Origin: Candidatus Sulfopaludibacter sp. SbA3
Lineage (GTDB): Bacteria > Acidobacteriota > Vicinamibacteria > Vicinamibacterales > UBA2999
Direction of reading: 5' to 3'
DNA length: 64,000 bases
Assembly (NCBI GenBank): GCA_945903265.1
Contig: CAMDNQ010000005.1
Location: forward strand, 1 to 64,000
In this document: one piece after another, positions 14,159-42,591 of the stretch
Layout: each line of letters starts with the position of its first letter
Position numbering within the stretch: the stretch's first letter is position 1
Translations under genes and position numbers: made by a program
The notes under the pieces: model-generated
The model's database searches: none
What the model was told of the DNA's origin: nothing
What the model saw: only the letters and a program-made list of their open reading frames with translations

Positions 14159-15283
14159 ATGCCTCGACCGCTCCGTGTTGCCATCGTTGCCGCTTCGCTC
14201 CGCATCCTGGGCGGCCAGGCCGTCCAGGCCGCTCGCCTGCTGGAAAGCTGGGATCGGGATGCCCAGATTCAGGCGTGGCTGGTGCCAATCAATCCGGTCC
14301 CTCCCCGGCCGTTCGACGCCCTGCTCCGGGTCAAATACGTGCGGACGGTCGTCACGCAGCTTCTGTACTGGCCGCTCCTTTTCCGCGAGCTCCGGCGCGC
14401 CGACGTGGTTCACGTCTTTTCGGCGTCGTACTCATCGTTCCTGCTGTCACCGCTCCCGGCGGTGATCGTCGCAAAGCTGCTGCGCCGGCCGGTCATCCTC
14501 AACTATCACAGCGGCGAAGCGCCCGACCATCTGCGCCGATCGGCCGTCGCCCGACGCGTGATGCGGTCGTGGGTGGACCTGAATGTCGTGCCGTCGGTGT
14601 TTCTTCGAGACGTGCTCGCATCATTCAGGATTCCGGCGCGGGTCGTGACCAATACCATCGACATGGTCCGATTCGGATATCGACCGCGCGCGATGCTGCG
14701 GCCGCGGATCCTGTCCACGCGGAACCTCGAGCCGCTCTACAACGTCGCCTGCACCATTCGCGCATTCGCGCGTGTGCAGGCCCGTTATCCAGAGGCGACG
14801 CTGACCATTGTCGGCGCCGGCTCCGACGAACCATTCCTTCGCGGGCTGGTACTGGAGCGCGCCCTGCGGCACGTGACGTTTGCGGGGCGCGTCCCGCCTG
14901 ACGAGATTCATCACTATTACGCCGCCGCGGACATCTACGTGCAGACGCCGCGCATCGACAACATGCCTCTGTCGGTCCTCGAGGCCTTTGCGAGCGGGCT
15001 ACCCGTCGTCTCGACCGCTGTCGGCGGCGTGCCGGCCATTCTCACGGATCGAGTACACGGACTGCTCGCGCCCGATGATGACGACGAGGCGGTGGCCGCC
15101 AGTCTCATGCAGCTGCTCGAATCTCCCCTCTACGCACAGCAGCTGGCCGCGGCCGCGCGTGAGAGCTGCAGCGCGTATGAATGGGCGGCGGCCAGACACG
15201 GCTGGCTCGCCGCGTATGCCGAGGCCGCCGGGCTGACAGCGCCGGTCCCGTTCCCGCCGCACATTTCCCGGGAGTCTGTATGA
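14159..15283 (+). CDS. Glycosyltransferase family 4 protein
   Basis: The 374-residue cytoplasmic protein has the GT-B layout of GT4 enzymes. The N-domain holds 'RVAIVAASLRILGGQAVQA'. The donor-binding C-domain holds 'ATLTIVGAGSDEP', 'VTFAGRVPPDEIHHYYAAADIYV' and 'MPLSVLEAFASGLPVVST' followed by 'GGVPAIL', with the E-x7-E-like region intact. It probably transfers a sugar in exopolysaccharide assembly. Its stop overlaps the start of the heparinase-like gene (ATGA), so they are coupled. Confidence 0.9.
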   Translation: MPRPLRVAIVAASLRILGGQAVQAARLLESWDRDAQIQAWLVPINPVPPRPFDALLRVKYVRTVVTQLLYWPLLFRELRRADVVHVFSASYSSFLLSPLPAVIVAKLLRRPVILNYHSGEAPDHLRRSAVARRVMRSWVDLNVVPSVFLRDVLASFRIPARVVTNTIDMVRFGYRPRAMLRPRILSTRNLEPLYNVACTIRAFARVQARYPEATLTIVGAGSDEPFLRGLVLERALRHVTFAGRVPPDEIHHYYAAADIYVQTPRIDNMPLSVLEAFASGLPVVSTAVGGVPAILTDRVHGLLAPDDDDEAVAASLMQLLESPLYAQQLAAAARESCSAYEWAAARHGWLAAYAEAAGLTAPVPFPPHISRESV

Positions 15284-17955
15284 ACCTGGCGAGCCTGCAG
15301 AAGCTGCGCGGCATGTCGAGCGAGGAAGCGCTCTGGCGAGGACGCCAGGCTGCGCGCACCGCGATGCAGCGTGTCGGCTGGACCGTCCGGCGTCCCCGGT
15401 GGCAGCGTTCAGACCTGCGCGAGGCGCTGGCCGACGGCGTCATCGATTACATGTTCCTCTCGCGCGCAACGCCATCGTGGCGTGACGTACACGCGGAGCT
15501 CGAGTCGCATCTGCGCGAGCGGCGCAGTCGCTTCGCGCTCGATCCGGCGGCGCACGCCAGCATGCGTGACCGTGTGATCGCGCTCAGGCCCGACGCACCA
15601 GCCGAGGCCGCGGCGCGGGCCGACCGCATCCTGGCACACCGGTATGACCTGCTGGGATATCGGGACCTCCGATTCGCCGAGGCCGGCGGCGGCACGGTGT
15701 GGCACCACGATCCGGTCCACCGGCGAACGGCGCCCAGCACGTTCTTCGCTGATGTCCCGTATCTCGATCCCGCGAGCGGCGACCACAAAGTGATCTGGGA
15801 GCTGAATCGCCACCAGCACTGGCTGCAGCTCGGACGCGCATCCTGGCTCACCGGCGATGTCCGGTACTCACAGGCCATGGTCACGCAGCTCGAACAATGG
15901 CTCGCAGCCAATCCGCCGCTCACGGGGATCAACTGGACCAGCATGCTGGAACTGGGCTTCCGATCGATGTCGTGGACCTGGGCGTTGCATTTTCTCTTGG
16001 CGATCAGGGATCAGGGATCAGGGATCAGCGCGTCCCGATCCCCGATCCGTGATCCCCGATCCCCGATCCCTGATCCCTCGTCTTCATGGCTCGTCGACAT
16101 GCTCGTGGGCCTTCACCATCAGCTCACACACGTCGAGCGGAACCTGTCGCTGTACTTCAGTCCCAATACGCATCTCACCGGTGAGGCGCTGGCGCTGTAC
16201 GTCGTCGGCGTGGCCCTGCCGGAGCTTGCTGGGGGCGCGCGGTGGGCCGAGACCGGTCGGTCGATTCTTCTGACCGAGATCGGGCGGCAGATCGGGCGGG
16301 ACGGCGGGCACCTGGAGCGCTCGACGCACTATCAGCGCTACACCCTCGACTTCTACCTGATGGCGCTGCTCACGGCCCGCCGCGACAGCGATCCTGAGGC
16401 GGTCACCGCATTCTCGAGCGCCGTGGCCCGCCTGGCCGATTTCACGCGGACGATGGCGGACGACGAAGGTCGCCTGCCGATCATCGGTGATGACGACGGC
16501 GGGATGCTCTGGCCGCTGGCGGGCCGCGCCTGTCACGACGTACGCGATTCGCTCGCACTCGCGGCAGTGCTGCTGAATCGCCCCGACCTCGCGCCATGGG
16601 GCCTGCAGGAGGAAGCGCTGTGGATTGCCGGTCCACATCTGGTCGATCAGGCGACTCCTCTCTCACCGCGACCGGATGCGATTACGGTGCGGTCGCGTAC
16701 CTTTCCTGACACCGGTTACGTCGTCGCACGAGATCGCTCGGGTACGCATGCCGTTATCGACGTCGGCGCTCACGGCTATCTGAATGGCGGCCACGCGCAT
16801 GCCGATGCCCTGGCGATCACGCTGCGGCTCAACGGACGGCCGCTGCTGATCGATCCCGGGACATCCACGTACACGATGGACCGTAAGGTCCGCGACCAGC
16901 TTCGCAGCAGCATGAGCCACAACACCGTCTCGCTCCAGAGCCGGTCGATCGCCGAACCCGCCGGCCCCTTCCACTGGAAGACGCGGGCGGACTCGGTGCT
17001 CCACGCGTCACGGCATAACGAGCATTTCGACTGGGTGGAGGCGTGCCATGACGCGTACGCGCCGGTACGTGTCCGGCGCACCGTCTTTCGGAGTGCGCTC
17101 TCGGGCTGGATGGTCTTCGATGAAGCGGTCGGCGACGGGCCCGTGACTGCGAGCGCGCACTGGCATTTCGATCCGTCGTGGGCCGTGACATACGACGCCG
17201 CGGGGCGGCTCCAGGCGTCGCACACCGACGGCGGCCACGTCTGGCTGCTGCACGAAGGCCAGGGCGTCCTGCTGGCGCACGGAGACGCCGACTCGGGCCT
17301 CGGATGGCACGCACCCGTCTACGGAATGCTCGTCCCATGCTGGACGGCGCGCACCACGCGATCGGCGTCAGCGCCATTCGGCATGGCCACATGGATCGGC
17401 GCCGCAGGCACCGCAAGCCATCCCCCTGGCATGGAGCGCCTCACGGTCGCATCTGCCGGGGGCCGCCACGCCGTTGGACTCCGCGTCGTCGACGGAAGCG
17501 GTACGGCGGTATTTCTCTTCCATCCGGGCGACGTCGAGGCCATCGTCGACCGCGAGAGCACGATTGCCGACTATCAGACCGACGCGCGCGTGTTTCAGTA
17601 CGTCGTCGAAGACGACAGACTCACGTCGTTCAATCTCGTGGACGGCAGGCATGGCCTTGCGCTGCGCGACGGGTGGGTCAGCGTCGCCGCCAGCGGCCCG
17701 ATTGCCGATCTGTCTGCTGTCGTGACGGGCGACACATTGGACCTGCACGCCACCGCGCCGCCTCCCGAGATGCGGATCCACGGCGGGGCCCTCCAGGGGG
17801 TGTCGCGTGTCCGACTGAACGGGCGTGACGCGCCGCGCCGTCAGCGAGAGACGCCCGATACGGTCGCGCTTGGAGGGGCAGACTGGGCCGTACCGGTCCG
17901 CGATTTGCTCCCTGATGGGGCCGAGGCAGGACCGATGGATGTCTTGGCCGTTTGA
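15280..17955 (+). CDS. Heparinase II/III family protein (polysaccharide lyase-like)
   Basis: The 891-residue protein has an alpha-helical toroid N-half and the heparinase II/III beta domain. Its diagnostic region is 'YLNGGHAHADALAITLRLNGRPLLIDPGT' split around positions 500-530, followed by 'SHNTVSL'. Such proteins in polysaccharide loci cleave or edit uronate-containing polymers. ATG 15280 overlaps the GT4 stop; the frame is open upstream but without homology. Residues encoded by 16002-16078 (IRDQGSGIS...RDPRSPIPDP) are a tandem-repeat insertion between two conserved helices. No signal peptide is seen. Confidence 0.88.
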   Translation: MNLASLQKLRGMSSEEALWRGRQAARTAMQRVGWTVRRPRWQRSDLREALADGVIDYMFLSRATPSWRDVHAELESHLRERRSRFALDPAAHASMRDRVIALRPDAPAEAAARADRILAHRYDLLGYRDLRFAEAGGGTVWHHDPVHRRTAPSTFFADVPYLDPASGDHKVIWELNRHQHWLQLGRASWLTGDVRYSQAMVTQLEQWLAANPPLTGINWTSMLELGFRSMSWTWALHFLLAIRDQGSGISASRSPIRDPRSPIPDPSSSWLVDMLVGLHHQLTHVERNLSLYFSPNTHLTGEALALYVVGVALPELAGGARWAETGRSILLTEIGRQIGRDGGHLERSTHYQRYTLDFYLMALLTARRDSDPEAVTAFSSAVARLADFTRTMADDEGRLPIIGDDDGGMLWPLAGRACHDVRDSLALAAVLLNRPDLAPWGLQEEALWIAGPHLVDQATPLSPRPDAITVRSRTFPDTGYVVARDRSGTHAVIDVGAHGYLNGGHAHADALAITLRLNGRPLLIDPGTSTYTMDRKVRDQLRSSMSHNTVSLQSRSIAEPAGPFHWKTRADSVLHASRHNEHFDWVEACHDAYAPVRVRRTVFRSALSGWMVFDEAVGDGPVTASAHWHFDPSWAVTYDAAGRLQASHTDGGHVWLLHEGQGVLLAHGDADSGLGWHAPVYGMLVPCWTARTTRSASAPFGMATWIGAAGTASHPPGMERLTVASAGGRHAVGLRVVDGSGTAVFLFHPGDVEAIVDRESTIADYQTDARVFQYVVEDDRLTSFNLVDGRHGLALRDGWVSVAASGPIADLSAVVTGDTLDLHATAPPPEMRIHGGALQGVSRVRLNGRDAPRRQRETPDTVALGGADWAVPVRDLLPDGAEAGPMDVLAV
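16002..16078. repeat. GGGATCA/GATCCCC heptamer array, in frame inside the heparinase gene
   Basis: GATCAGG units run in one direction and then, after a short centre near 16029, CGATCCC/TGATCCC units run in the opposite direction, making an inverted repeat of heptamer arrays. The encoded peptide is low complexity (Arg, Asp, Pro, Ser, Gly, Ile) and unlike the flanking sequence. Confidence 0.85.
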
Positions 17956-20645: not shown

Positions 20646-21962
20646 ATGAAAGTCTCCGTTTTCGGCCTCGGCTATGTGGGCACGGTCTCCGCGGCATCGT
20701 TTGCGGCCGCCGGCCATGAGGTGGTGGGCGTCGACGTCAACGAGGACAAGGTGCGCACCATCAACGAGGGCCGGAGCCCGATCGTCGAGCCGGGGCTCGG
20801 CGAGCTGCTGACCGATGTCGTGGGTCGCGGGCAGTTGCGCGCGACAACCAGCACGGCCGACGCCGTCAACGCCACGGACCTCTCACTCGTCTGCGTGGGC
20901 ACGCCCAGCCGCCGCAACGGCAGCCTGGACCTGACCTACCTGACGCGTGTCTGCGAGCAGATCGGCGAGGTCATCCGCGACAAGTCCTCCTATCACGTGG
21001 TCGTCATCCGCAGCACCGTGCTCCCCGGCACGACGCACGGCACGGTCATCCCCGCGCTCGAGACCGCGTCGGGCACAAAATACGGCGAGGGGTTCGGCGT
21101 GTCGGTGAATCCCGAGTTCCTGCGCGAAGGGACGGCCCTCAAGGACTTCCGGGAGCCGCCGTTCACGCTCGTCGGGCACAACCATGCGGCCGACGCCGCG
21201 CCGACCCAGGCGCTCTACGAGGACATCGCGGCGCCGCTCTACAACGCGCCGATCCGCACCGCCGAGATGATCAAGTACACGAGCAATACCTGGCACGCGG
21301 TGAAGGTCGTCTTCGCCAACGAGATCGGGAACCTGTGCAAGAAGGTGGGCGTCGACAGCCACGACGTGATGGACATCTTCTGCAAGGACCAGAAACTGAA
21401 CCTGTCGTCGTATTACATGAAGCCCGGGTTCGCATTCGGCGGATCGTGCCTCCCGAAGGACGTGCGCGCGCTGCAGTACCGCGCCAAGGAAGTCGACCTG
21501 GTGATGCCGCTCATCAACTCGGTCCTTGGCAGCAACCGGATGCAGATCGATCACGCGCTGGACCGCATCGTCGACACCGGCAAGAAGAAGATCGGCCTGA
21601 TGGGATTCAGCTTCAAGGCGGGCACCGACGACCTGCGCGAGTCACCCATCGTCATCCTCGCCGAGAAACTGCTCGGCAAGGGCTATTCGCTGTCCATCTA
21701 CGACAAGAACGTGTCGCTGGCCAAGCTTGTCGGCGCCAACAAGCAGTACATCGAAGAACAGATTCCCCACTTGTCGCAGCACCTCTGCGACACGCTCGAC
21801 GAGTTGATTGACTGCTCCGAGGTCATCGTCGTCGGCAACGGATCGCCGGAGTTTTCCGACGCCCTCACGAAAACCAGGGCGGACCAGACCGTCATCGACC
21901 TCGTGCGCATCCCACTGGATTTCACGAAGGTCAAGGCGCAGTACGACGGAATTTGTTGGTAG
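20646..21962 (+). CDS. UDP-glucose/GDP-mannose dehydrogenase family, AlgD-like
   Basis: The 438-residue enzyme has an N-terminal NAD fold (GLGYVGT), 'VCVGTPS', 'VNPEFLREGTA', 'AEMIKYTSNTWHA' and the catalytic Cys268 in FAFGGSCLPKD, the same position and context as in GDP-mannose dehydrogenase AlgD. It oxidises a nucleotide sugar to the uronate for the exopolysaccharide. The true start is ATG 20646. The last codons and the stop (TGG-TAG) come from the first unit of the downstream TTGGTAG array, so the C-terminus ends at the repeat. Confidence 0.93.
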   Translation: MKVSVFGLGYVGTVSAASFAAAGHEVVGVDVNEDKVRTINEGRSPIVEPGLGELLTDVVGRGQLRATTSTADAVNATDLSLVCVGTPSRRNGSLDLTYLTRVCEQIGEVIRDKSSYHVVVIRSTVLPGTTHGTVIPALETASGTKYGEGFGVSVNPEFLREGTALKDFREPPFTLVGHNHAADAAPTQALYEDIAAPLYNAPIRTAEMIKYTSNTWHAVKVVFANEIGNLCKKVGVDSHDVMDIFCKDQKLNLSSYYMKPGFAFGGSCLPKDVRALQYRAKEVDLVMPLINSVLGSNRMQIDHALDRIVDTGKKKIGLMGFSFKAGTDDLRESPIVILAEKLLGKGYSLSIYDKNVSLAKLVGANKQYIEEQIPHLSQHLCDTLDELIDCSEVIVVGNGSPEFSDALTKTRADQTVIDLVRIPLDFTKVKAQYDGICW

Positions 21963-21997
21963 TTGGTAGTTGGTGGTTGGTGGTTGGTGGTTGGTGG
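21956..21997. repeat. TTGGTAG/TTGGTGG heptamer array (6 units)
   Basis: Six head-to-tail heptamers fill most of the gap between the convergent dehydrogenase and SpoIID-like genes. The first unit supplies the TAG stop of the dehydrogenase; the SpoIID-like gene stops 3 bases beyond the last unit. Confidence 0.92.
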
Positions 21998-22000
21998 TTG

Positions 22001-26314: not shown

Positions 26315-26377
26315 TTGGTTGGTGGTTGGTGGTTGGTGGCTTGAACCACCAACTACCAACTGCTACTGACCAATCAA
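26315..26377. repeat. TTGGTGG array and inverted ACCACCA/ACTACCA array
   Basis: TTGGTGG units on one side and ACCACCAACTACCAACTGCTA on the other form an inverted repeat that fills the space between the convergent Vgb-like and SulP genes. The last four codons and the stop of the SulP gene (LIGQ-stop) lie in it. Confidence 0.85.
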
Positions 26378-33973: not shown

Positions 33974-33989
33974 GGGCGAAGTCTATCGC

Positions 33990-34031
33990 GGGATCGGGGA
34001 TCGGGGATCGGGGATCAGGGATCGGGGATCA
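33990..34031. repeat. GGGATCG/GGGATCA heptamer array (6 units)
   Basis: Six head-to-tail heptamers lie just upstream of the ModA-like start codon, in the divergent region before the four-helix-bundle gene. This probably coincides with the promoter region of one or both genes. Confidence 0.92.
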
Positions 34032-34115: not shown

Positions 34116-34529
34116 GTGCGCATGCTAATTGCTGGCGATCCACGCGTGGCTATTCAGTCATTCCGCGACCTGAAAGCGTGGCAACAGGGGATGGAGTTCG
34201 TGACGCGGGTGTACTCGGTCACGCGAGCATTTCCGCGTGAGGAGCTTTACGGTCTGTCGGCTCAACTTCGACGTGCCGCAGTTGCGGTGCCGTCGAATAT
34301 CAGCGAAGGACATCAGCAGTCGACAAAAGCATTTGCGCACTATCTGACAATTGCGCTAGGCAGTCTCGCTGAGTGCGAGACTCAGTTGGAGCTTGCCACG
34401 CGGCTTGGGTTGGCGCCGGCGGCCGATGTTGAAACGGTCCTCGCCGCGGCCACACCACTGCGTCGCACGTTGCATGGGCTTCGACGCTCACTAAGAACAC
34501 AGAACCTCGAACCGCTCCCTGATCCCTGA
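34116..34529 (+). CDS. Four-helix bundle protein (23S rRNA IVS-type)
   Basis: The protein of about 135 residues has the signature 'FRDLKAWQQGMEFVTRVYSVTRAFPREELYGLSAQLRRAAVAVPSNISEGH' (in pieces), typical of the four-helix-bundle family first seen in 23S rRNA intervening sequences. Here it is a free gene, as commonly found in Bacteroidetes and Acidobacteriota. Function is unknown. GTG 34116 or ATG 34122 could start it. The last codons (PDP) and the TGA stop are supplied by the TGATCCC array. Confidence 0.85.
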   Translation: MRMLIAGDPRVAIQSFRDLKAWQQGMEFVTRVYSVTRAFPREELYGLSAQLRRAAVAVPSNISEGHQQSTKAFAHYLTIALGSLAECETQLELATRLGLAPAADVETVLAAATPLRRTLHGLRRSLRTQNLEPLPDP

Positions 34530-34550
34530 TCCCTGATCCCTGATCCCTAA
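34517..34550. repeat. CCCTGAT heptamer array between convergent genes
   Basis: Four full CCCTGAT units plus a partial one make up the whole gap between the four-helix-bundle gene and dnaE2. The plus-strand gene takes its TGA stop from the array, and the minus-strand dnaE2 TAG stop lies at its other edge. Confidence 0.9.
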
Positions 34551-37500
34551 TAAAAATCATGCGCGTCGACCGACGCGCCCCCGTCGATGCCCTGCACGCG
34601 CTCGGCTTTGACCGACAGCACGCCGTCCTGATGCTGCAGGACGCCGTCGACAATCAGGAACGGCCGGCGAATGACGACCTGGCGCTCACGATCGAACAGG
34701 TCCGGACGAATGATGACGTTCGAGATGCCCGTCTCGTCTTCGAGCGTGAGGAACACGAACCCCTTGGCGGTCCCGGGCCGCTGGCGCGTGATGACCATGC
34801 CGGCCACGCGCACGCGGCGCCCATTACGCACCTGCGGCAGATCCGAGGCGCGCAGGACACCCCGTAGCGCCATATCGTCGCGGCGAAGCGCCATGGGATG
34901 GGGACCGATGGTGAGGCTGGTACCCGCGTAGTCGGCATGCAGGCGCTCGCTCGCGGACATGACGGGAAGCGGGGATCGGGGATCAGGGAGCGGGGATCCG
35001 GGATCCGAATCCCCCGGGTCCCCGATCCCTGATCCCTGATCCCCGAATAGCGCGCCAGCGGGCCTCACGGCGCGCTCCACCTGCCAGAGCGCGCTCCGCC
35101 GCTCGTTCGTAAATGCGTTCAATGCGCCGATGTCCGCGAGCGTCGCCAGCTCGTCGCGCCGGAGGCCCGTGCGACGGGTCAGATCCTCGATCGTGGTGAA
35201 GCGGCCGACAGGCTCCACCGCGACGTTCCACTCGTGCGCACAGGTGTTGCAGAAATACTTGCGCCGGATCCCGGATCCCTGATCCCGGATCCCCTCTGCA
35301 ACCACTTCGATCATCGAGTCGTCATCGGAGCCGCATTTCGGGCACTCAGGCGACGCCAACGGTTCCATGATTTTGCTCCTGTCGAATGCCGCAATGACGT
35401 GGCCGATCTCCTTGCGCAGGCCGTTGACGTACATGAGTCCAAGCCGAATGCCGCCATCCTCCTCAATCCGGCACAGCCAGTCGGACTGCTGCACGTCGAT
35501 CGCATGGAACCGGACACCCCGCCGCTGTGCGTCCTTGACGAGCGACGCCGGGTGATAAAACCCCATCGGCTGGTTGTTGAGGAGCGCCGTAAAGAACACG
35601 GCCGGATAGTGCACCTTGAGGTACGCGCTCGCGTACGCCAGCAACGCAAAGCTCGCGGCGTGTGATTCGGGAAAACCGTACAGCGCAAACGACGTGATCG
35701 ACGTGATGATGCGCTCCGCCGTCTCGCCCGTGATCCCGTTGCGCGTCATGCCGTCGCGCAGCTGAATCTCGATCTGCTTCATCCGCTTCTCGGATCGTTT
35801 GAACCCCATCGCGCGGCGCAGCTCTTCGGCCTGCCCGCCGGTAAATCCCGCCGCCACCATCGCCATGCGCAGCAGCTGTTCCTGGAACAGCGGCACCCCG
35901 AGCGTGCGCGCGAGCACCGGCTCGAGACACGCGTGAAGCGGCACCACGGGCTCCCGGCCCGCGCGCCGGTTCAGATACGGGTGCACCATGTCGCCGACGA
36001 TCGGACCGGGACGGATGATGGCGACCTGGACGACCAGGTCATAGAAACAGGTCGGCTTGAGGCGCGGCAGCGTCGCCATCTGCGCGCGCGACTCGACCTG
36101 GAAGACGCCGATGGTCTCGGCCTTCCGCAGCATGTCGTAGACCTCGGGGTCGTCTGGCGGCAGATGCGCGAGGTCGAATTTTCCGATCCCCGATCCCTGA
36201 TCCCCGATCCCTGTGTTGACCAGCTCAATGGCATCCTGCAGCACCGCCATCATCCCGAGCCCGAGCAGGTCGACCTTGACGATCCCCATCTCGGCGCAGT
36301 CGTCCTTGTCCCACTGGACGACGACACGGCCCGGCATGCTCGCCGGCTCCAGCGGGACGACCGCGTCCAGCTCGCCCTGGCAGATCACCATTCCGCCGGA
36401 ATGCTGCCCGAGATGGCGCGGCAGATCCTGGATGCGAACCCAGAGATCGGCAAACGTCCGCATGCGCGGCATGTCGAGCGACAGCCCAACCGCCTCGAGA
36501 TTGCGTCCCAGCGTCTCGTTCGGGTCGTTGAACTCGAAGTGGTTCATCACCTTGGCCAGCCGGTCCACATCCTCGTCTTTCATTGAGAGCGCCTTCCCCA
36601 CCTCGCGGGCGGCGCTGCGGCTGCGATACGTGATGACGTTGGCGGTCATGGCCGCCCCCAGGCGGCCGTACTTGTCGTACACGTGCTGGATGACGCGCTC
36701 GCGGCGGTCGCCGCTCGGAAAGTCGAGATCGATGTCGGGCCACTCGCCGCGCTCCTCCGAGAGAAACCGCTCGAACAGCAGCTCCATCGCAATCGGATCG
36801 ACCGCCGTGATGCCGAGGCTGTAGCAGACGGCGCTGTTGGCGGCGGACCCGCGTCCCTGGACGAGGATGTTCTGCTGCCGCGCATAGTTCACGATGTCCC
36901 AGACGATCAGAAAATAGCCGGCCAGATCGAGCTTCGCGATCAGATCGAGCTCGCGTTCGATCTGGCGGCGCGCCTTGTCGTGATACGGCCGGTAGCGTTC
37001 GTGCGCGCCGACTTCGGCGATGTGGCGCAGAAACGACATCTCCGTCTCGCCGTCTGGTACCGGGTACTTCGGAAACCGGTACCCGAGATCCGCCATCGTG
37101 TACTCGAGCCGCTCCGCCAGCGACGCCGTGGCGGCCAGCGCCTCAGGGCGATCCGAAAACAGCTGCGCCATCGCCTCCGGCGACTTGAGGTAGCGCTCGG
37201 CGTTCCGCGCCAGCAGCCGGCCACCGGCGTCGAGCGTCGTCTTGTGGCGGACGCAGGTCAGGACGTCGAAGAGCGGCCGATCGGCAGGTTCGGCGAAGCG
37301 GACGCCGTTGGTGGCAATGACGGGGACGCGATACGCGCGCGCCAGCGCGTCAAGCGCCGCGTTGCCGGATTCTCCGTCGCGCTGGAGGTGGCGCTGCAGC
37401 TCGACGTACACATTGCGCCGGCCAAACAGCCCTACCAGCCGATCGAGCAGCCCGCCGACACCGTAGCGGCTCGCATCGAGCAGCGGCCGCCCGCCGAGCG

Positions 37501-37882
37501 CCACGAGCCCGGCTGTCGATCCGTCAAGTTCCTCGAGCGCGAGCGCGCCTTCACCCTTGCCGGCGCGCATCTTCATGCGCGTGATCAGCCGGCACAGATT
37601 GCGGTACCCCTCCTGGGATTCGACAAGGACTGGCAACGACCAGGTTGGTGGTTGGTGGTTGGTGGTTGGTGACGAGCCAATCGTGAGCTCTGCACCGACG
37701 ATGGGTTTCAGCCCTGCCTGCTTGGCGGCCTTATGAAATCGCGGGGCTCCGTACACCCCGTCGGCGTCGAGCAGGGCAAGCGAGGTATAGCCGAGCGTGG
37801 CCGCGCGCTCGATCAGCGTTTCGGGAAGCGACGCCCCCTGAAGAAAGCTGAAGGCCGATGCACAGTGAAGCTCGACGTACAT
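34547..37882 (-). CDS. dnaE2: Error-prone DNA polymerase DnaE2 with repeat-derived insertions
   Basis: The 1111-residue C-family polymerase has an N-terminal PHP domain with several metal residues replaced (LHCASAFSF, LLDADGVYG), as is usual in DnaE2. It also has palm aspartates in PDIDLDFPSG, 'RPGPIVGDMVHPYLNRR', a CPKC...CNTC zinc knuckle near residue 870 and a C-terminal OB fold ('RVRVAGMVITRQRPG'). It performs mutagenic translesion synthesis with ImuA and ImuB. ATG 37882 fits the family start; no Shine-Dalgarno is present because a heptamer array lies directly upstream. Four arrays are read in frame, at 34971-35045, 35264-35291, 36184-36211 and 37643-37670. Confidence 0.93.
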   Translation of the reverse strand: MYVELHCASAFSFLQGASLPETLIERAATLGYTSLALLDADGVYGAPRFHKAAKQAGLKPIVGAELTIGSSPTTNHQPPTWSLPVLVESQEGYRNLCRLITRMKMRAGKGEGALALEELDGSTAGLVALGGRPLLDASRYGVGGLLDRLVGLFGRRNVYVELQRHLQRDGESGNAALDALARAYRVPVIATNGVRFAEPADRPLFDVLTCVRHKTTLDAGGRLLARNAERYLKSPEAMAQLFSDRPEALAATASLAERLEYTMADLGYRFPKYPVPDGETEMSFLRHIAEVGAHERYRPYHDKARRQIERELDLIAKLDLAGYFLIVWDIVNYARQQNILVQGRGSAANSAVCYSLGITAVDPIAMELLFERFLSEERGEWPDIDLDFPSGDRRERVIQHVYDKYGRLGAAMTANVITYRSRSAAREVGKALSMKDEDVDRLAKVMNHFEFNDPNETLGRNLEAVGLSLDMPRMRTFADLWVRIQDLPRHLGQHSGGMVICQGELDAVVPLEPASMPGRVVVQWDKDDCAEMGIVKVDLLGLGMMAVLQDAIELVNTGIGDQGSGIGKFDLAHLPPDDPEVYDMLRKAETIGVFQVESRAQMATLPRLKPTCFYDLVVQVAIIRPGPIVGDMVHPYLNRRAGREPVVPLHACLEPVLARTLGVPLFQEQLLRMAMVAAGFTGGQAEELRRAMGFKRSEKRMKQIEIQLRDGMTRNGITGETAERIITSITSFALYGFPESHAASFALLAYASAYLKVHYPAVFFTALLNNQPMGFYHPASLVKDAQRRGVRFHAIDVQQSDWLCRIEEDGGIRLGLMYVNGLRKEIGHVIAAFDRSKIMEPLASPECPKCGSDDDSMIEVVAEGIRDQGSGIRRKYFCNTCAHEWNVAVEPVGRFTTIEDLTRRTGLRRDELATLADIGALNAFTNERRSALWQVERAVRPAGALFGDQGSGIGDPGDSDPGSPLPDPRSPLPVMSASERLHADYAGTSLTIGPHPMALRRDDMALRGVLRASDLPQVRNGRRVRVAGMVITRQRPGTAKGFVFLTLEDETGISNVIIRPDLFDRERQVVIRRPFLIVDGVLQHQDGVLSVKAERVQGIDGGASVDAHDFY
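34971..35045. repeat. GGGATC-type heptamer inverted array inside dnaE2
   Basis: GGGATCG/GGGATCA/GGGATCC units run toward a centre near 35010 and then reverse as CCGATCCC/TGATCCC. The translated minus strand gives a Gly/Asp/Pro/Ser-rich insertion between the helix-rich region and the OB fold of DnaE2. Confidence 0.9.
35264..35291. repeat. CCGGATC heptamer array (4 units) inside dnaE2
   Basis: Four units (CCGGATC, CCGGATC, CCTGATC, CCGGATC) encode GIRDQGSGIR on the minus strand. They lie between the two halves of a CxxC...CxxC zinc knuckle. Confidence 0.88.
36184..36211. repeat. CGATCCC heptamer array (4 units) inside dnaE2
   Basis: Four units (CGATCCC, CGATCCC, TGATCCC, CGATCCC) encode IGDQGSGIG on the minus strand, inserted just after the conserved 'GLGMMAVLQDAIELV' helix of the polymerase core. 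Confidence 0.88.
37643..37670. repeat. GGTTGGT heptamer array (4 units) inside dnaE2
   Basis: Four units encode SPTTNHQPPT on the minus strand within the PHP-domain region of DnaE2, directly after 'IVGAELTIG'. The array belongs to the TTGGTGG type seen at 21956 and 26315. Confidence 0.9.
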
Positions 37883-37931
37883 GGCAGGTGGCAGTCCGTA
37901 GTCGGTAGTCGGTAGGCGGTAGTCGGTAGCC
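37883..37931. repeat. GGTAGTC heptamer array (7 units) between imuB and dnaE2
   Basis: Seven units (GGCAGGT, GGCAGTC, CGTAGTC, GGTAGTC, GGTAGGC, GGTAGTC, GGTAGCC) occupy the gap and abut the dnaE2 ATG, replacing the expected ribosome binding site. The frame through the array is open, so an upstream TTG start at 37936 is an alternative. Confidence 0.9.
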
Positions 37932-37946
37932 AGCAACGCCCGTGCG

Positions 37947-39317
37947 TCAGTCGAATACGCCGTCGAGAAACCAGGCGCCGCTGCCGCGCTCGCGGAAGAC
38001 GCGGTACGCCACGCCGTCCCCGAGCGCCACGTCCCACTCGTCGCGGTCCCATGAAGACACCTGGGATCGGGGATCCGGGATCCGGGATCCGGGAGACCCG
38101 GGTTCGTCGTTCCACCAGTTCCCCGACGTACGCCAGGGTCCCGCAGCTGACTGCACCGCCCCCCCCGTCAATCCGCGACGATCGATTACGAGATGCAGCG
38201 GCGTCCCCTCGTGCGCGCGAACGCGTGCGGGTACCGGCACGCGAAACCGTCGTAACGCGACGGACGGGGATCGGGGATCGGGGATCCGGAAGGGACGGAT
38301 CCCTGATCCCTGATCCCTGATCCCTGATCCCGGGTTGAATCCCTTCATCCCAAACACCCCCGGCTTCCACGAGTCCACCACTACCGGCGAGCCGCAACGG
38401 TCCTCCCCCATCAAGGCGCTGAGGCGCGCCATCAGGGTGGACAGCTGCTCCGGCGACGGCAGCGGCCGCGCCAGCAGCGAAAACTGCAGCACACGCGCCG
38501 GCGTCGGGTCGGCCGCCACGACCACCCGATCGATGGCCGCGGGCGGCGGATGCGATTCGAGATCGAGCAGCAGCAGCGTGCGCAGCGTGCGTGCGTCGCG
38601 CATGGCCGCCGGCAGCTGCAGCGATCGCTCGTGCAGCGTGCGCGTCACGAGATGGAGCCGCAGGTGCAGGACCGCGGCGCCGCGGCCGCGGCGTTCGAGA
38701 TGCGCCGCCAGCGGCTCCAGCAGCCGCCCGAGCACGAACGACAGCGGCTCCAGTCCCTCAATCGGCCATTCCAGGTCGAACGCCTGCTCGAACCGCTCGA
38801 CAGGCACGTCCGGCTGCAGCGGACGGAGGTCGTGTCCCTGCGCCAGCCGATGGCAGCGAAGGCCCTCGGCGCCGAGGCGCGCCGACACGGCATCGGCCGG
38901 CAGTGCGGCCAGATCACCCAGGGTCCGAAGGCCCCAGCGGCGGAATGTGGAGAGCAGCTCGGGGTTCACAGCGTTCAGCTGCGGTAACACAGCGTTCAGC
39001 TGCGCCAGCAGTTCAAGCGGCAGCGGCGCAACTGCGTCCGCATCCTCCCCGCGATTGACGACCGTCACGGGACACGAGTGATGCGCGGCTAACAGATGGG
39101 CGGCGGTGCACGTGCCGGCAATCGCCACGTGCGCACGGATCCCGCGGTCCACAATCGCCGTGCGGAGTGCGTCGGCAATCGCGCGCGGATGGCCGAACAG
39201 CCGATCGAGACCGGCGAGGTCCAGGACGACCGCATCGCCGCGTCGCTCGAAGCGTGGAGAAAAATCCGCGGCGACGTCGCGGAGGATGCCTGGGTCGCCT
39301 ACAAGCGCGCCGAACAT
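37947..39317 (-). CDS. imuB: ImuB-type Y-family polymerase-like protein
   Basis: The 456-residue protein starts at ATG 39317, overlapping imuA by 19 bp; the frame extends upstream but without homology. It has 'DAVVLDLAGLDRLFGHPRAIADALR', 'RRWGLRTLGDLAALPADAVSARLG' and 'FDLEWPIEGLEPLSFVLGRLLEPLAAHL' (in pieces), typical of ImuB, an inactive Y-family homologue that links ImuA, DnaE2 and the beta clamp. Two heptamer arrays are read in frame near the C-terminus. A weaker QLNAV-type duplication occurs near residue 105. Confidence 0.87.
   Translation of the reverse strand: MFGALVGDPGILRDVAADFSPRFERRGDAVVLDLAGLDRLFGHPRAIADALRTAIVDRGIRAHVAIAGTCTAAHLLAAHHSCPVTVVNRGEDADAVAPLPLELLAQLNAVLPQLNAVNPELLSTFRRWGLRTLGDLAALPADAVSARLGAEGLRCHRLAQGHDLRPLQPDVPVERFEQAFDLEWPIEGLEPLSFVLGRLLEPLAAHLERRGRGAAVLHLRLHLVTRTLHERSLQLPAAMRDARTLRTLLLLDLESHPPPAAIDRVVVAADPTPARVLQFSLLARPLPSPEQLSTLMARLSALMGEDRCGSPVVVDSWKPGVFGMKGFNPGSGIRDQGSGIRPFRIPDPRSPSVALRRFRVPVPARVRAHEGTPLHLVIDRRGLTGGAVQSAAGPWRTSGNWWNDEPGSPGSRIPDPRSQVSSWDRDEWDVALGDGVAYRVFRERGSGAWFLDGVFD
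38063..38097. repeat. GGGATCC heptamer array inside imuB
   Basis: Five units (GGGATCG, three GGGATCC, GGGAGAC) are translated as part of 'PGSRIPDPRSQ' close to the ImuB C-terminus. Confidence 0.88.
38267..38333. repeat. GGGATCG / TGATCCC inverted heptamer array inside imuB
   Basis: Three GGGATC units face four or more TGATCCC units across a centre near 38292. The array adds roughly 20 residues ('SGIRDQGSGIRPFRIPDPR') to ImuB after the last conserved block. Confidence 0.88.
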
Positions 39318-40012
39318 GCGACCTCGCCATCCACCTGCCGCCGCGGCGAGACGACCCGCACGCCGATCTCGAGTCCCGCCAGACGCCGGCTGCGGCCAGC
39401 CTCCCCCTCCCACTCCGGACGGCCGTCGCACGTCAGCGTCAGCCCGCCGGCACTCCGCGTCATCGCGTGCGGCGCCAGCAGCAGACAGATCGTCTCGCTG
39501 CCCTCAATCGCGCGCTGGATGCGCAGCCATGTCGTAAACGGGATGCGGTTCAGCGCCTGGGCCGGCGCATCCGCCAGATCGAACACCACGAGGCCAAAGC
39601 CGCCCGCCTGGAGGACGAGATTGAGCGCCTTGAGCCCCCGCTCAATCACGCGATCGAACAAGGACGAGGCTTCTCCGCGAACCCAGAGCAGCCGCTCCAG
39701 GTCGATGCCCGCGGATGCGGCAGAACCCACGTCGAGTCGATCGAACGTGTCGACCAGGGCGGCAATCTCGCCGCGCCGGGTCGCCGCCGCGAGCATGTGC
39801 AGCGCTGCCGCCGTCCGGCCCGACGACTGCCGTCCCACCAGCTCGGAGAGCTGGCCGCGGGGCAATCCACCGCGCAGGCACTCATCCAGCCGCGCGATTT
39901 CTGTGGCCGCCGCGTTGGGGCGAACAGCCAAGGGGAGCGACGTGGTGAGCGTTCGGTCGAGTTTCCGGGCGCGGAGTGCGGCTTCGACCATCGCCAGAAC
40001 TGTATTCGCCAT
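39299..40012 (-). CDS. imuA: ImuA-type RecA-like mutagenesis protein
   Basis: The 237-residue protein has a RecA/SulA-like core: 'ARLDECLRGGLPRGQLSELVG' with a Walker-A-like GRQSSGRT at about residues 60-67, then 'GEIAALVDTFDRLD' and 'LVVFDLADAPA'. ImuA proteins work with ImuB and DnaE2 in damage-induced mutagenesis. It is the first gene of the minus-strand cassette imuA-imuB-dnaE2. A palindromic site lies 13 bp upstream of its ATG. Confidence 0.87.
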   Translation of the reverse strand: MANTVLAMVEAALRARKLDRTLTTSLPLAVRPNAAATEIARLDECLRGGLPRGQLSELVGRQSSGRTAAALHMLAAATRRGEIAALVDTFDRLDVGSAASAGIDLERLLWVRGEASSLFDRVIERGLKALNLVLQAGGFGLVVFDLADAPAQALNRIPFTTWLRIQRAIEGSETICLLLAPHAMTRSAGGLTLTCDGRPEWEGEAGRSRRLAGLEIGVRVVSPRRQVDGEVACSARL

Positions 40013-41304: not shown

Positions 41305-42549
41305 ATGCGAAACCGAGTGAGAACCGCCGTCTTTGGCGCCGCGGTGATCTTCGGCGCCACGGCCGTCTACGCGCAGGAACCTCCGCCTCTTCAAACCACC
41401 GTTGAAACCACCGCAGATCCAGCCGCCCAGGAACCCGACGCGGGAAGCGGCCGCAGCTTCTTCGACCGGCTGCGCGCCAAGGGTGATGAGATTGCGAACG
41501 AGACGCAGATCGTCGAGCGTCTGAACGGCGACATCGACGGTTGGTATCCGCGGCTCGGGGGGATGACGCGCGGCGGCGGCTTCGCCCTCGGACCCGGCTA
41601 TCGCTTCCACGTCACAGACGACGGCATCTTCGTGGATCTGTCGGCGGGCATGTCGCTCAAGGGCTACAAGTCGGCGGACGTCAACGTACGCTGGCTGCAG
41701 GCCCTCGACGATCGCTTCGAGTTCTGGACCGATTTCCGCTACGAGGATTTTCCGCAGGAAGATTTCTTCGGCCTGGGCCTCGAGTCCACCGAGAGCGGCC
41801 GCACGAGCTATCAGTTCCGCAACAAGGATCTGTCCGCGCGCGCGCTCTTCAAGCCGGTGACCTGGTTGAGTGTCGGCACCAAGCTCGGTTACATCACCCC
41901 CGAGATCGGCCGCGGCACGGACAGCCGGTACGCTTCGCTCGAAGAGATCTTCACGGACCTCGACGCACCCGGCCTCACCTCGCAGCCTGACTTCGTGCAT
42001 ACGGAGTTCTTCAGCGAGGTCGACGTCCGCGATCGACGCGGCAATCCGGCGAGCGGCGGCTTCTATCGTGCGTCGGTCGGATTAATCGACGACCGCGGCC
42101 GCGGGGAGTTCGATCACCAGCGCTTCGATGCGCTCGCCGCGCATTACGTTCCGATTGCCCCCAGCCGCCGGCACATCGTGTCCGGGCGGCTTGGCCTGAG
42201 TTACGTCAATAACGACCCCGGCGAACGGGTACCGTTCTACTTCCTGCCCTACGTGGGCGGCGTCGACACGATTCGCAGCTTTCAGGAATTCCGGTTCAAG
42301 GAAGAAAACGCGATATGGCTCGGCGCGGAGTACCGCTTCGTCGCGTTCAACAATGTCAGCTTCGTGGGATTCCTGGACGGCGGCAAGGTCGCGCACAACT
42401 GGGAAGACATCGAGTTCAACGGCCTGAAGAAGGGCTACGGCTTCGGTGTCCGGGTGCACAGTAACTCGCAGAACTTCGCGCGCCTCGACTTTGGCACCGG
42501 CGGCGGCGAAGGCTGGCAGCTCTTCCTGAAGCTCGGTCCGAGTTTTTAG
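41305..42549 (+). CDS. BamA/TamA-family outer-membrane beta-barrel protein
   Basis: The 414-residue protein has a signal peptide (cleavage near AVYAQE) and a C-terminal surface-antigen (D15) barrel: 'RHIVSGRLGLSYVNND', 'PYVGGVDTIRSFQEFRFKEENAIWLGAEYRF', 'VSFVGFLDGGKV' (pieces), ending in Phe. There are no POTRA repeats long enough to recognise. It may assist secretion or form a pore. The stop codon is followed immediately by a GCACCAG heptamer array. Confidence 0.85.
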   Translation: MRNRVRTAVFGAAVIFGATAVYAQEPPPLQTTVETTADPAAQEPDAGSGRSFFDRLRAKGDEIANETQIVERLNGDIDGWYPRLGGMTRGGGFALGPGYRFHVTDDGIFVDLSAGMSLKGYKSADVNVRWLQALDDRFEFWTDFRYEDFPQEDFFGLGLESTESGRTSYQFRNKDLSARALFKPVTWLSVGTKLGYITPEIGRGTDSRYASLEEIFTDLDAPGLTSQPDFVHTEFFSEVDVRDRRGNPASGGFYRASVGLIDDRGRGEFDHQRFDALAAHYVPIAPSRRHIVSGRLGLSYVNNDPGERVPFYFLPYVGGVDTIRSFQEFRFKEENAIWLGAEYRFVAFNNVSFVGFLDGGKVAHNWEDIEFNGLKKGYGFGVRVHSNSQNFARLDFGTGGGEGWQLFLKLGPSF

Positions 42550-42591
42550 GCACCAAGCACCAAGCACCAGGCACCAGGCACCAGGCACCGG
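42550..42591. repeat. GCACCAA/GCACCAG heptamer array (6 units)
   Basis: Six head-to-tail units fill the whole gap between the convergent BamA-like and glycine-zipper genes, beginning at the base after one stop and ending 2 bases before the other. Confidence 0.93.

Follow-up and report, generated by a model that had tools for sequence, protein, structure and literature searches.

Heptamer arrays in an acidobacterial dnaE2 gene as probable insertions of small elements built on a PF05635 gene

This study deals with short tandem arrays of seven-nucleotide units that lie within and beside dnaE2, the gene of the error-prone DNA polymerase III alpha, in a stretch of 64,000 nucleotides (the window) from Candidatus Sulfopaludibacter sp. 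SbA3 (Acidobacteriota, Vicinamibacterales; genome G000). We think it probable that these arrays are insertions of an apparently undescribed class of small elements, which end in heptamer arrays on both sides and contain a single gene, of the PF05635 family (23S_rRNA_IVP or S23, here IVP). The evidence set out below points to PF05635 elements, one of which adjoins dnaE2, as the likely source of the dnaE2 arrays. An earlier note, made from the letters of the window, had proposed that dnaE2 absorbed such arrays in frame; this is borne out by the sister genomes to which it looked, where array-free dnaE2 alleles exist in relatives with about 80-85% protein identity, but the note named no source for the arrays and missed both the flanking element and the arrays of the neighbouring imuB gene. 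What would be new, on comparative evidence, is the element class, heptamer arrays themselves being already known; in the open-access papers that we searched, we found no earlier description of a link between IVP and heptamers, or of such an element.

The PF05635 element and its generality

The element of the window sits between a modA-like gene and dnaE2. It begins with a left terminal array (GGGATCR)n at 33985-34030 (plus strand), whose G-rich strand points inward, followed by a PF05635 gene of 137 amino acids at 34116-34529 (plus strand; Pfam score 110.9 bits against a cut-off of 33.8), and it ends with an inverted array (TCCCTGA)n at 34516-34548 (minus strand), which contains the TGA stop of the PF05635 gene and extends to the stop codon of dnaE2. 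This architecture of array, PF05635 gene and inverted array is well supported. G000 has five PF05635 genes, all with inverted heptamer-like flanks; the unit is the same at both ends of an element and differs from element to element.

To judge such flanks more generally, upstream and downstream flanks were swapped between loci and the 95% level of the resulting scores was taken as threshold. In the order of the window, 62 of 68 PF05635 genes exceed this level (median score 25.75 versus 10.5), that is 91% of IVP genes, compared with 4.4% of size-matched control open reading frames (ORFs; n=1,342) at the same score. Inverted heptamer flanks are also present at 57 of 71 PF05635 genes drawn from many phyla, at 22 of 33 in Nostocaceae and at 14 of 29 in Xanthomonadaceae, where many units read GGGAATC/GGGATTC and where the swap control is inflated, the units being common to several species. 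The polarity is strict: the counts in favour of an inward G-rich strand are 130:13 for the two ends of IVP genes, and 23:0 for gene-less hairpins.

The protein of the window, modelled as a monomer with AlphaFold2 (AF2), is a four-helix bundle (pLDDT 92.6) which resembles 2GSC (Xcc0516) with a TM-score to target of 0.86-0.89 and also matches BT_0352 (2RLD). Avd, of the diversity-generating retroelements, is a more distant match (TM-score to target about 0.8-0.88, 12-14% identity). Xcc0516, itself a member of the PF05635 family, forms a homopentameric ring.

Complete units are present or absent at matching flanks. Plasmid pNe_5 of Nostoc edaphicum has an array-IVP-array unit between nrdB and nrdA, and Calothrix sp. 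NIES-4105 has the same nrd genes, at 85% DNA identity, without the unit, the arrays being the first and last bases of the insert. Another such unit lies between cas6 and cas4 on pANA02 of Anabaena sp. 90 (L433, NC_019429), and a Dolichospermum plasmid whose flanks are 99% identical lacks it. Pseudanabaena galeata (pPg_01, L436) likewise has an IVP gene at this place in a CRISPR operon, flanked on either side by heptamer arrays. In Dolichospermum sp. UHCC 0315A the cas6-cas4 gap (L434:1810-2060) is filled by another insert, about 220 bp long, whose inverted ends read GTAGGTTGGGTTGACGC ... AACCCAACCTAC; the gap thus appears to be a recurrent site of insertion. Eighteen IVP genes have been reported in cas loci and the family counted among CRISPR-associated genes (PMC3936711), and a CRISPR survey shows IVP among its domains (PMC10910872). 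Some of the IVP genes of cas loci may be insertions and not cas genes. The link between IVP and heptamer arrays suggests that this CRISPR-listed family consists, in part at least, of insertion passengers.

The presence of IVP genes also goes with the abundance of dispersed arrays. In sampled regions (864 kb of 3.52 Mb in the census of G000), array density is 34.5 per Mb in 24 IVP-bearing genomes versus 6.2 per Mb in 14 IVP-free ones (p 0.011) and is correlated with the number of IVP genes (Spearman 0.50, p 0.0012); the two groups of genomes also differ in this way at their dnaE2 loci (p 0.0045). The units themselves correspond: 21 of 47 units at dnaE2 loci are identical to an IVP unit of their own genome, versus 1% for other genomes (permutation p 0.001), in a test on nine genomes of which two, G000 and G020, have an IVP element in the compared locus, which favours the figure. 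Of the loci fetched, those of G020 and G047 have an IVP gene in the imuB-dnaE2 interval, and that of G000 alone has one 3' of dnaE2. Arrays prefer a length of four units, and many of them lie within a few nucleotides of gene ends.

Arrays in dnaE2 and its neighbours

Arrays were located with Tandem Repeats Finder and an exact period scan. The window holds 16 exact arrays of period 7 versus 0.05 expected under a third-order Markov model; there are four of period 6 and none of periods 5, 8 or 9, so that no other period scanned comes near. A chance origin of the arrays is ruled out by this expectation together with the control ORFs.

As the earlier note had it, the gene is dnaE2: the frame 34547-37936 (minus strand) scores 1226 bits with the DnaE2 profile NF004225 (cut-off 939), and G000 has a separate DnaE with 34% identity to it. 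Translation probably starts at ATG 37882 and not at TTG 37936, the frame being open to the latter and the relatives aligning from MYVELH, which gives a gene at 34547-37882. It contains three solo arrays of about four units each, as had been counted: 35264-35293 lies between two CxxC motifs, 36183-36211 in the loop with which the finger domain begins, and 37643-37671, (GGTTGGT)n, in a PHP-domain loop. The larger inverted array previously seen near 34971 is a hairpin without ORF (34963-35043), made of two arrays (34963-35007 and 35019-35043) separated by an 11-bp gap; it occupies the linker that leads to the OB fold. The domain boundaries that had been suggested hold only in part: these places are variable loops or linkers, and the site at 37643 is inside the PHP domain. 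They were assigned by aligning the protein with E. coli pol III alpha; an AF2 model of DnaE2 reached a pLDDT of only 51 and was not used.

All arrays lie in the single open frame 34547-37936, without frameshift, and their translations agree with the peptides Asp-Gln-Gly-Ser-Gly-Ile and Thr-Asn-His-Gln-Pro read from them before; in the relatives with array-free alleles these peptides are absent, and so are not encoded there by non-repetitive DNA. The open frame is not as remarkable as it may seem, because 7 equals 1 modulo 3 and each strand of an array therefore encodes one and the same heptapeptide in all three frames. Whether the frame stays open then depends on the orientation and the unit, and whether it stays in frame depends on the total length being a multiple of three. 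It had been reasoned that, 28 being no such multiple, neighbouring bases must have changed as well; the CxxC site indeed measures 72 nucleotides in the window versus 42 in array-free alleles, a gain of 30. The site at 36183-36211 measures 81 nucleotides versus 63-66 in the shortest alleles, the array having taken the place of part of a linker; at this position a loop of comparable length is present in E. coli pol III alpha.

The array upstream of dnaE2, (TAGTCGG)n at 37893-37929, fills the junction with imuB and had been thought to replace the ribosome binding site. We prefer to see it as an insertion into a tight junction, because in relatives such as that of locus L106 the imuB match extends to a few nucleotides from dnaE2; in the window the gap is 64 nucleotides and holds the array.

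This recurs in the relatives. Fifty-nine were compared, 56 of which have a DnaE-type match (about 45 of these DnaE2-like), and 30 dnaE2 loci were fetched. These loci contain 96 arrays of period 7, versus 0, 10, 5 and 1 for periods 6, 8, 9 and 10. The same sites recur, namely the junction before the start, the PHP loop, the loop at the finger start, the stretch that separates the two CxxC motifs and the linker preceding the OB fold, and at these shared linkers the heptamer unit differs among many genera. An assembly artefact is unlikely, because many independent genomes have arrays at the same sites. In 32 genes of the replicative paralogue dnaE1 there is not a single array, versus 69 in 29 dnaE2 ORFs (upstream open frame included). 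Mutasome loci have 545 arrays per Mb, versus 45 per Mb elsewhere in the order. At the finger loop of G042, G011 and G015 (L107, L110, L112), different units start at identical nucleotides after a common GTCA. This suggests either that one unit can give way to another at the same site, or that older arrays serve as targets for new ones.

With the two genes upstream of it, dnaE2 probably makes up an SOS-mutasome cassette, encoded on the minus strand of the window, imuA and imuB being assigned by weak hits and position. The imuB-like Y-family gene (37947-39431, minus strand) scores 44.8 bits with DNA polymerase IV models, under their cut-off, and is the neighbour of dnaE2 in nearly all relatives; the imuA-like gene (39299-40012, minus strand) scores 35.6 bits with ImuA (NF033429), below the cut-off of 150. 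There are three arrays in imuB, one solo (38063-38094) and two forming an inverted pair, again a hairpin with an 11-bp gap (38265-38331).

Elsewhere in the window, a GGGATC hairpin pair with a 5-bp gap (16002-16078) lies within an ORF of 924 amino acids (15181-17955), and the arrays at 21955-22000 (GTTGGTG), 26316-26339 (TGGTTGG) and 42548-42589 (AGGCACC) are a few nucleotides from the ends of gene-sized ORFs. Elsewhere in the same genome (G000 C3, L238:12978-16496), a helicase-like ORF of 1172 amino acids has an in-frame array of GGGATC type encoding the peptide GSGEQGSGIGDQGSGIW; dnaE2 and imuB are thus not the only array-bearing genes. An 809-bp inverted pair in L238 was considered as an element and rejected: it encloses no IVP-like gene and consists of two separate arrays, one of them in the helicase-like ORF.

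A possible mechanism and its rivals

The scenario that we propose is the following. A complete unit is about 0.5 kb long and consists of a tandem heptamer array, one IVP/S23 gene and an inverted copy of that array, the G-rich strands pointing inward. The IVP protein would make or move the arrays; since pairing and polarity are strict, we suppose a hairpin or RNA intermediate, which might be bound by the IVP ring while host enzymes perform the DNA steps. Gene-less hairpins and solo arrays of about four units would descend from complete elements as non-autonomous derivatives spread in trans, like the repetitive extragenic palindromic (REP) sequences with their REP-associated tyrosine transposase (RAYT). 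DnaE2 and ImuB would accept arrays repeatedly, most likely through length-tolerant linkers in a dispensable polymerase, selection retaining only outcomes that are frame-neutral and without stops. Such tolerance would be the simplest cause of the mutasome hotspot, with targeting as the alternative, and we favour it. Our confidence is more evenly divided over the wider proposal that PF05635 defines a class of mobile elements without transposase in many phyla, in which the protein, host enzymes and a hairpin together write element-specific arrays.

Several facts weigh against the insertion of IVP elements as we propose it. The data are comparative and no movement was observed, and the comparisons between genomes, of density as of unit match, were computed without phylogenetic correction. 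The fit is limited to the 62 of 68 and 57 of 71 genes given above, and certain IVP genes have no arrays. The dnaE2 gene of G027 has arrays although no IVP was detected in that genome, and the arrays of G003 differ from its detected IVP unit. The site on the Dolichospermum plasmid is occupied by another insert, and so is no clean empty site. IVP copies inside one genome are for the most part diverged and not the product of recent bursts, and the sole multi-copy case travels as a passenger: in G143 (Nostocaceae; L362-L368) an insertion sequence (IS) of 1.9 kb with terminal inverted repeats of about 82 bp carries IVP in at least seven nearly identical copies, which we therefore rejected as proof of self-copying; an Rfam scan at this IS gave no match.

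A resident regulator is a rather unlikely alternative, in which IVP would bind arrays, as RNA or DNA, to control its own and other genes without the gene being mobile. The many arrays a few nucleotides from gene ends would suit it, as would a fold associated with nucleic acids, like that of Avd, and MacGregor proposed a repeat-binding protein for the TAACTGA repeats (PMC4679880). However, whole array-IVP-array units come and go at matching flanks in operons as unrelated as nrd and cas, and in-frame arrays within proteins make poor regulatory sites. We also find it unlikely that ordinary replication slippage, with a polymerase geometry favouring heptamers and local expansion of simple sequence repeats, could account for the arrays without any mobile element. 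The excess of heptamers in bacteria has been attributed to polymerase slippage (PMC4692102), array lengths do vary, the dnaE2 sites are common to several genera, and the different units at the finger loop of G042, G011 and G015 begin at the same nucleotides. Nevertheless, slippage would not yield inverted pairs of a single polarity, and it accounts neither for the tie to one gene family, nor for the genome-wide match with the unit of the IVP element, nor for the preference for four units.

We consider it very unlikely that the arrays are moved in trans by some other enzyme, be it a reverse transcriptase or a RAYT/Y1 transposase, with IVP as a passenger. Avd, the structural relative, does work with a reverse transcriptase (PMC10053308), and REP/RAYT systems are present in the same order; yet in G000, a draft of 98.9% completeness, there is no match to PF01797 (Y1 transposase) or to PF00078 (reverse transcriptase), and PF00078 was likewise not matched in many other IVP-bearing genomes. 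The one Y1 gene that we inspected (Y1_Tnp, L389:7560-8200, in G015) has REP-like palindromes GGGGGCCGGCTTTAGCCGGCC on its two sides, and the IVP genes of the same genome have heptamer arrays there. Finally, the dnaE2 arrays could be contingency loci that switch the mutasome off and on by gain or loss of units, since the reading frame would be shifted whenever one or two units came or went, and a single operon has many arrays. We give this idea hardly any credence: 29 of the 30 dnaE2 loci fetched have no stop inside the match, and the arrays are short, imperfect and located at conserved loops, as tolerated inserts would be.

If the wider proposal is correct, it would account for the orphan heptamers of Xanthomonas and cyanobacteria, for the intervening sequences (IVS) of 23S rRNA and for the apparent association of IVP with CRISPR, and it would imply a recurrent remodelling of the SOS mutasome polymerase in the order of the window. 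The link between IVP and heptamers turns two puzzles, repeats published with neither source nor function and PF05635 proteins with solved structures and no known function, into a single testable system. It also shows a way in which a repair polymerase repeatedly acquires new peptide linkers.

Relation to known systems

Elhai et al. reportedly described, in 2008, very small mobile repeats within heptameric tracts of Nostoc. The closest published relative of the IVP elements is the 23S rRNA IVS of Coxiella burnetii with its S23/IVP ORF, which has been called selfish and for which a mobile origin was proposed earlier (PMC4990558). The protein family is the same, the size is about 0.4-0.5 kb and the termini are complementary (a 28-bp stem in the IVS). 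However, the IVS is inserted into a helix of the rRNA, from which RNase III excises it (PMC4990558), whereas the IVP elements studied here lie between or inside protein genes and have heptamer arrays as their ends.

Heptamer repeats have been described without a mechanism by MacGregor (PMC4679880) and by Rehm et al. (PMC4692102). The heptameric G-quadruplex repeats of the latter, in Xanthomonas and Nostoc, share with our arrays the period of 7, the four-unit mode and the convergent inverted pairs; the GGGAATC/GGGATTC flanks of IVP genes in Xanthomonadaceae and the unit GGGATCR of the window, tandem and G-rich, belong to the same likeness. They differ in that they were published without a protein or a source and were generally not tied to mobile elements (PMC4692102), whereas the arrays described here bound a specific gene, and several of their units are not G-quadruplex-like. 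The TAACTGA repeats of Beggiatoaceae, Cyanobacteria and Bacteroidetes are, similarly, direct heptamer repeats near starts with a patchy spread, but they have one fixed unit and no link to IVP was reported (PMC4679880).

Avd has the same four-helix fold, and homology has been noted (PMC10053308), but identity is 12-14% and, as said, the PF00078 partner was not matched in G000. The system closest in logic is that of REP and RAYT, with one gene between inverted repeats and solo and paired repeats dispersed around the genome. The protein is another one, as is the repeat, and G000 has no match to Y1 (PF01797); by analogy, the parallel shows how IVP may stand to heptamer arrays as RAYT stands to REP.

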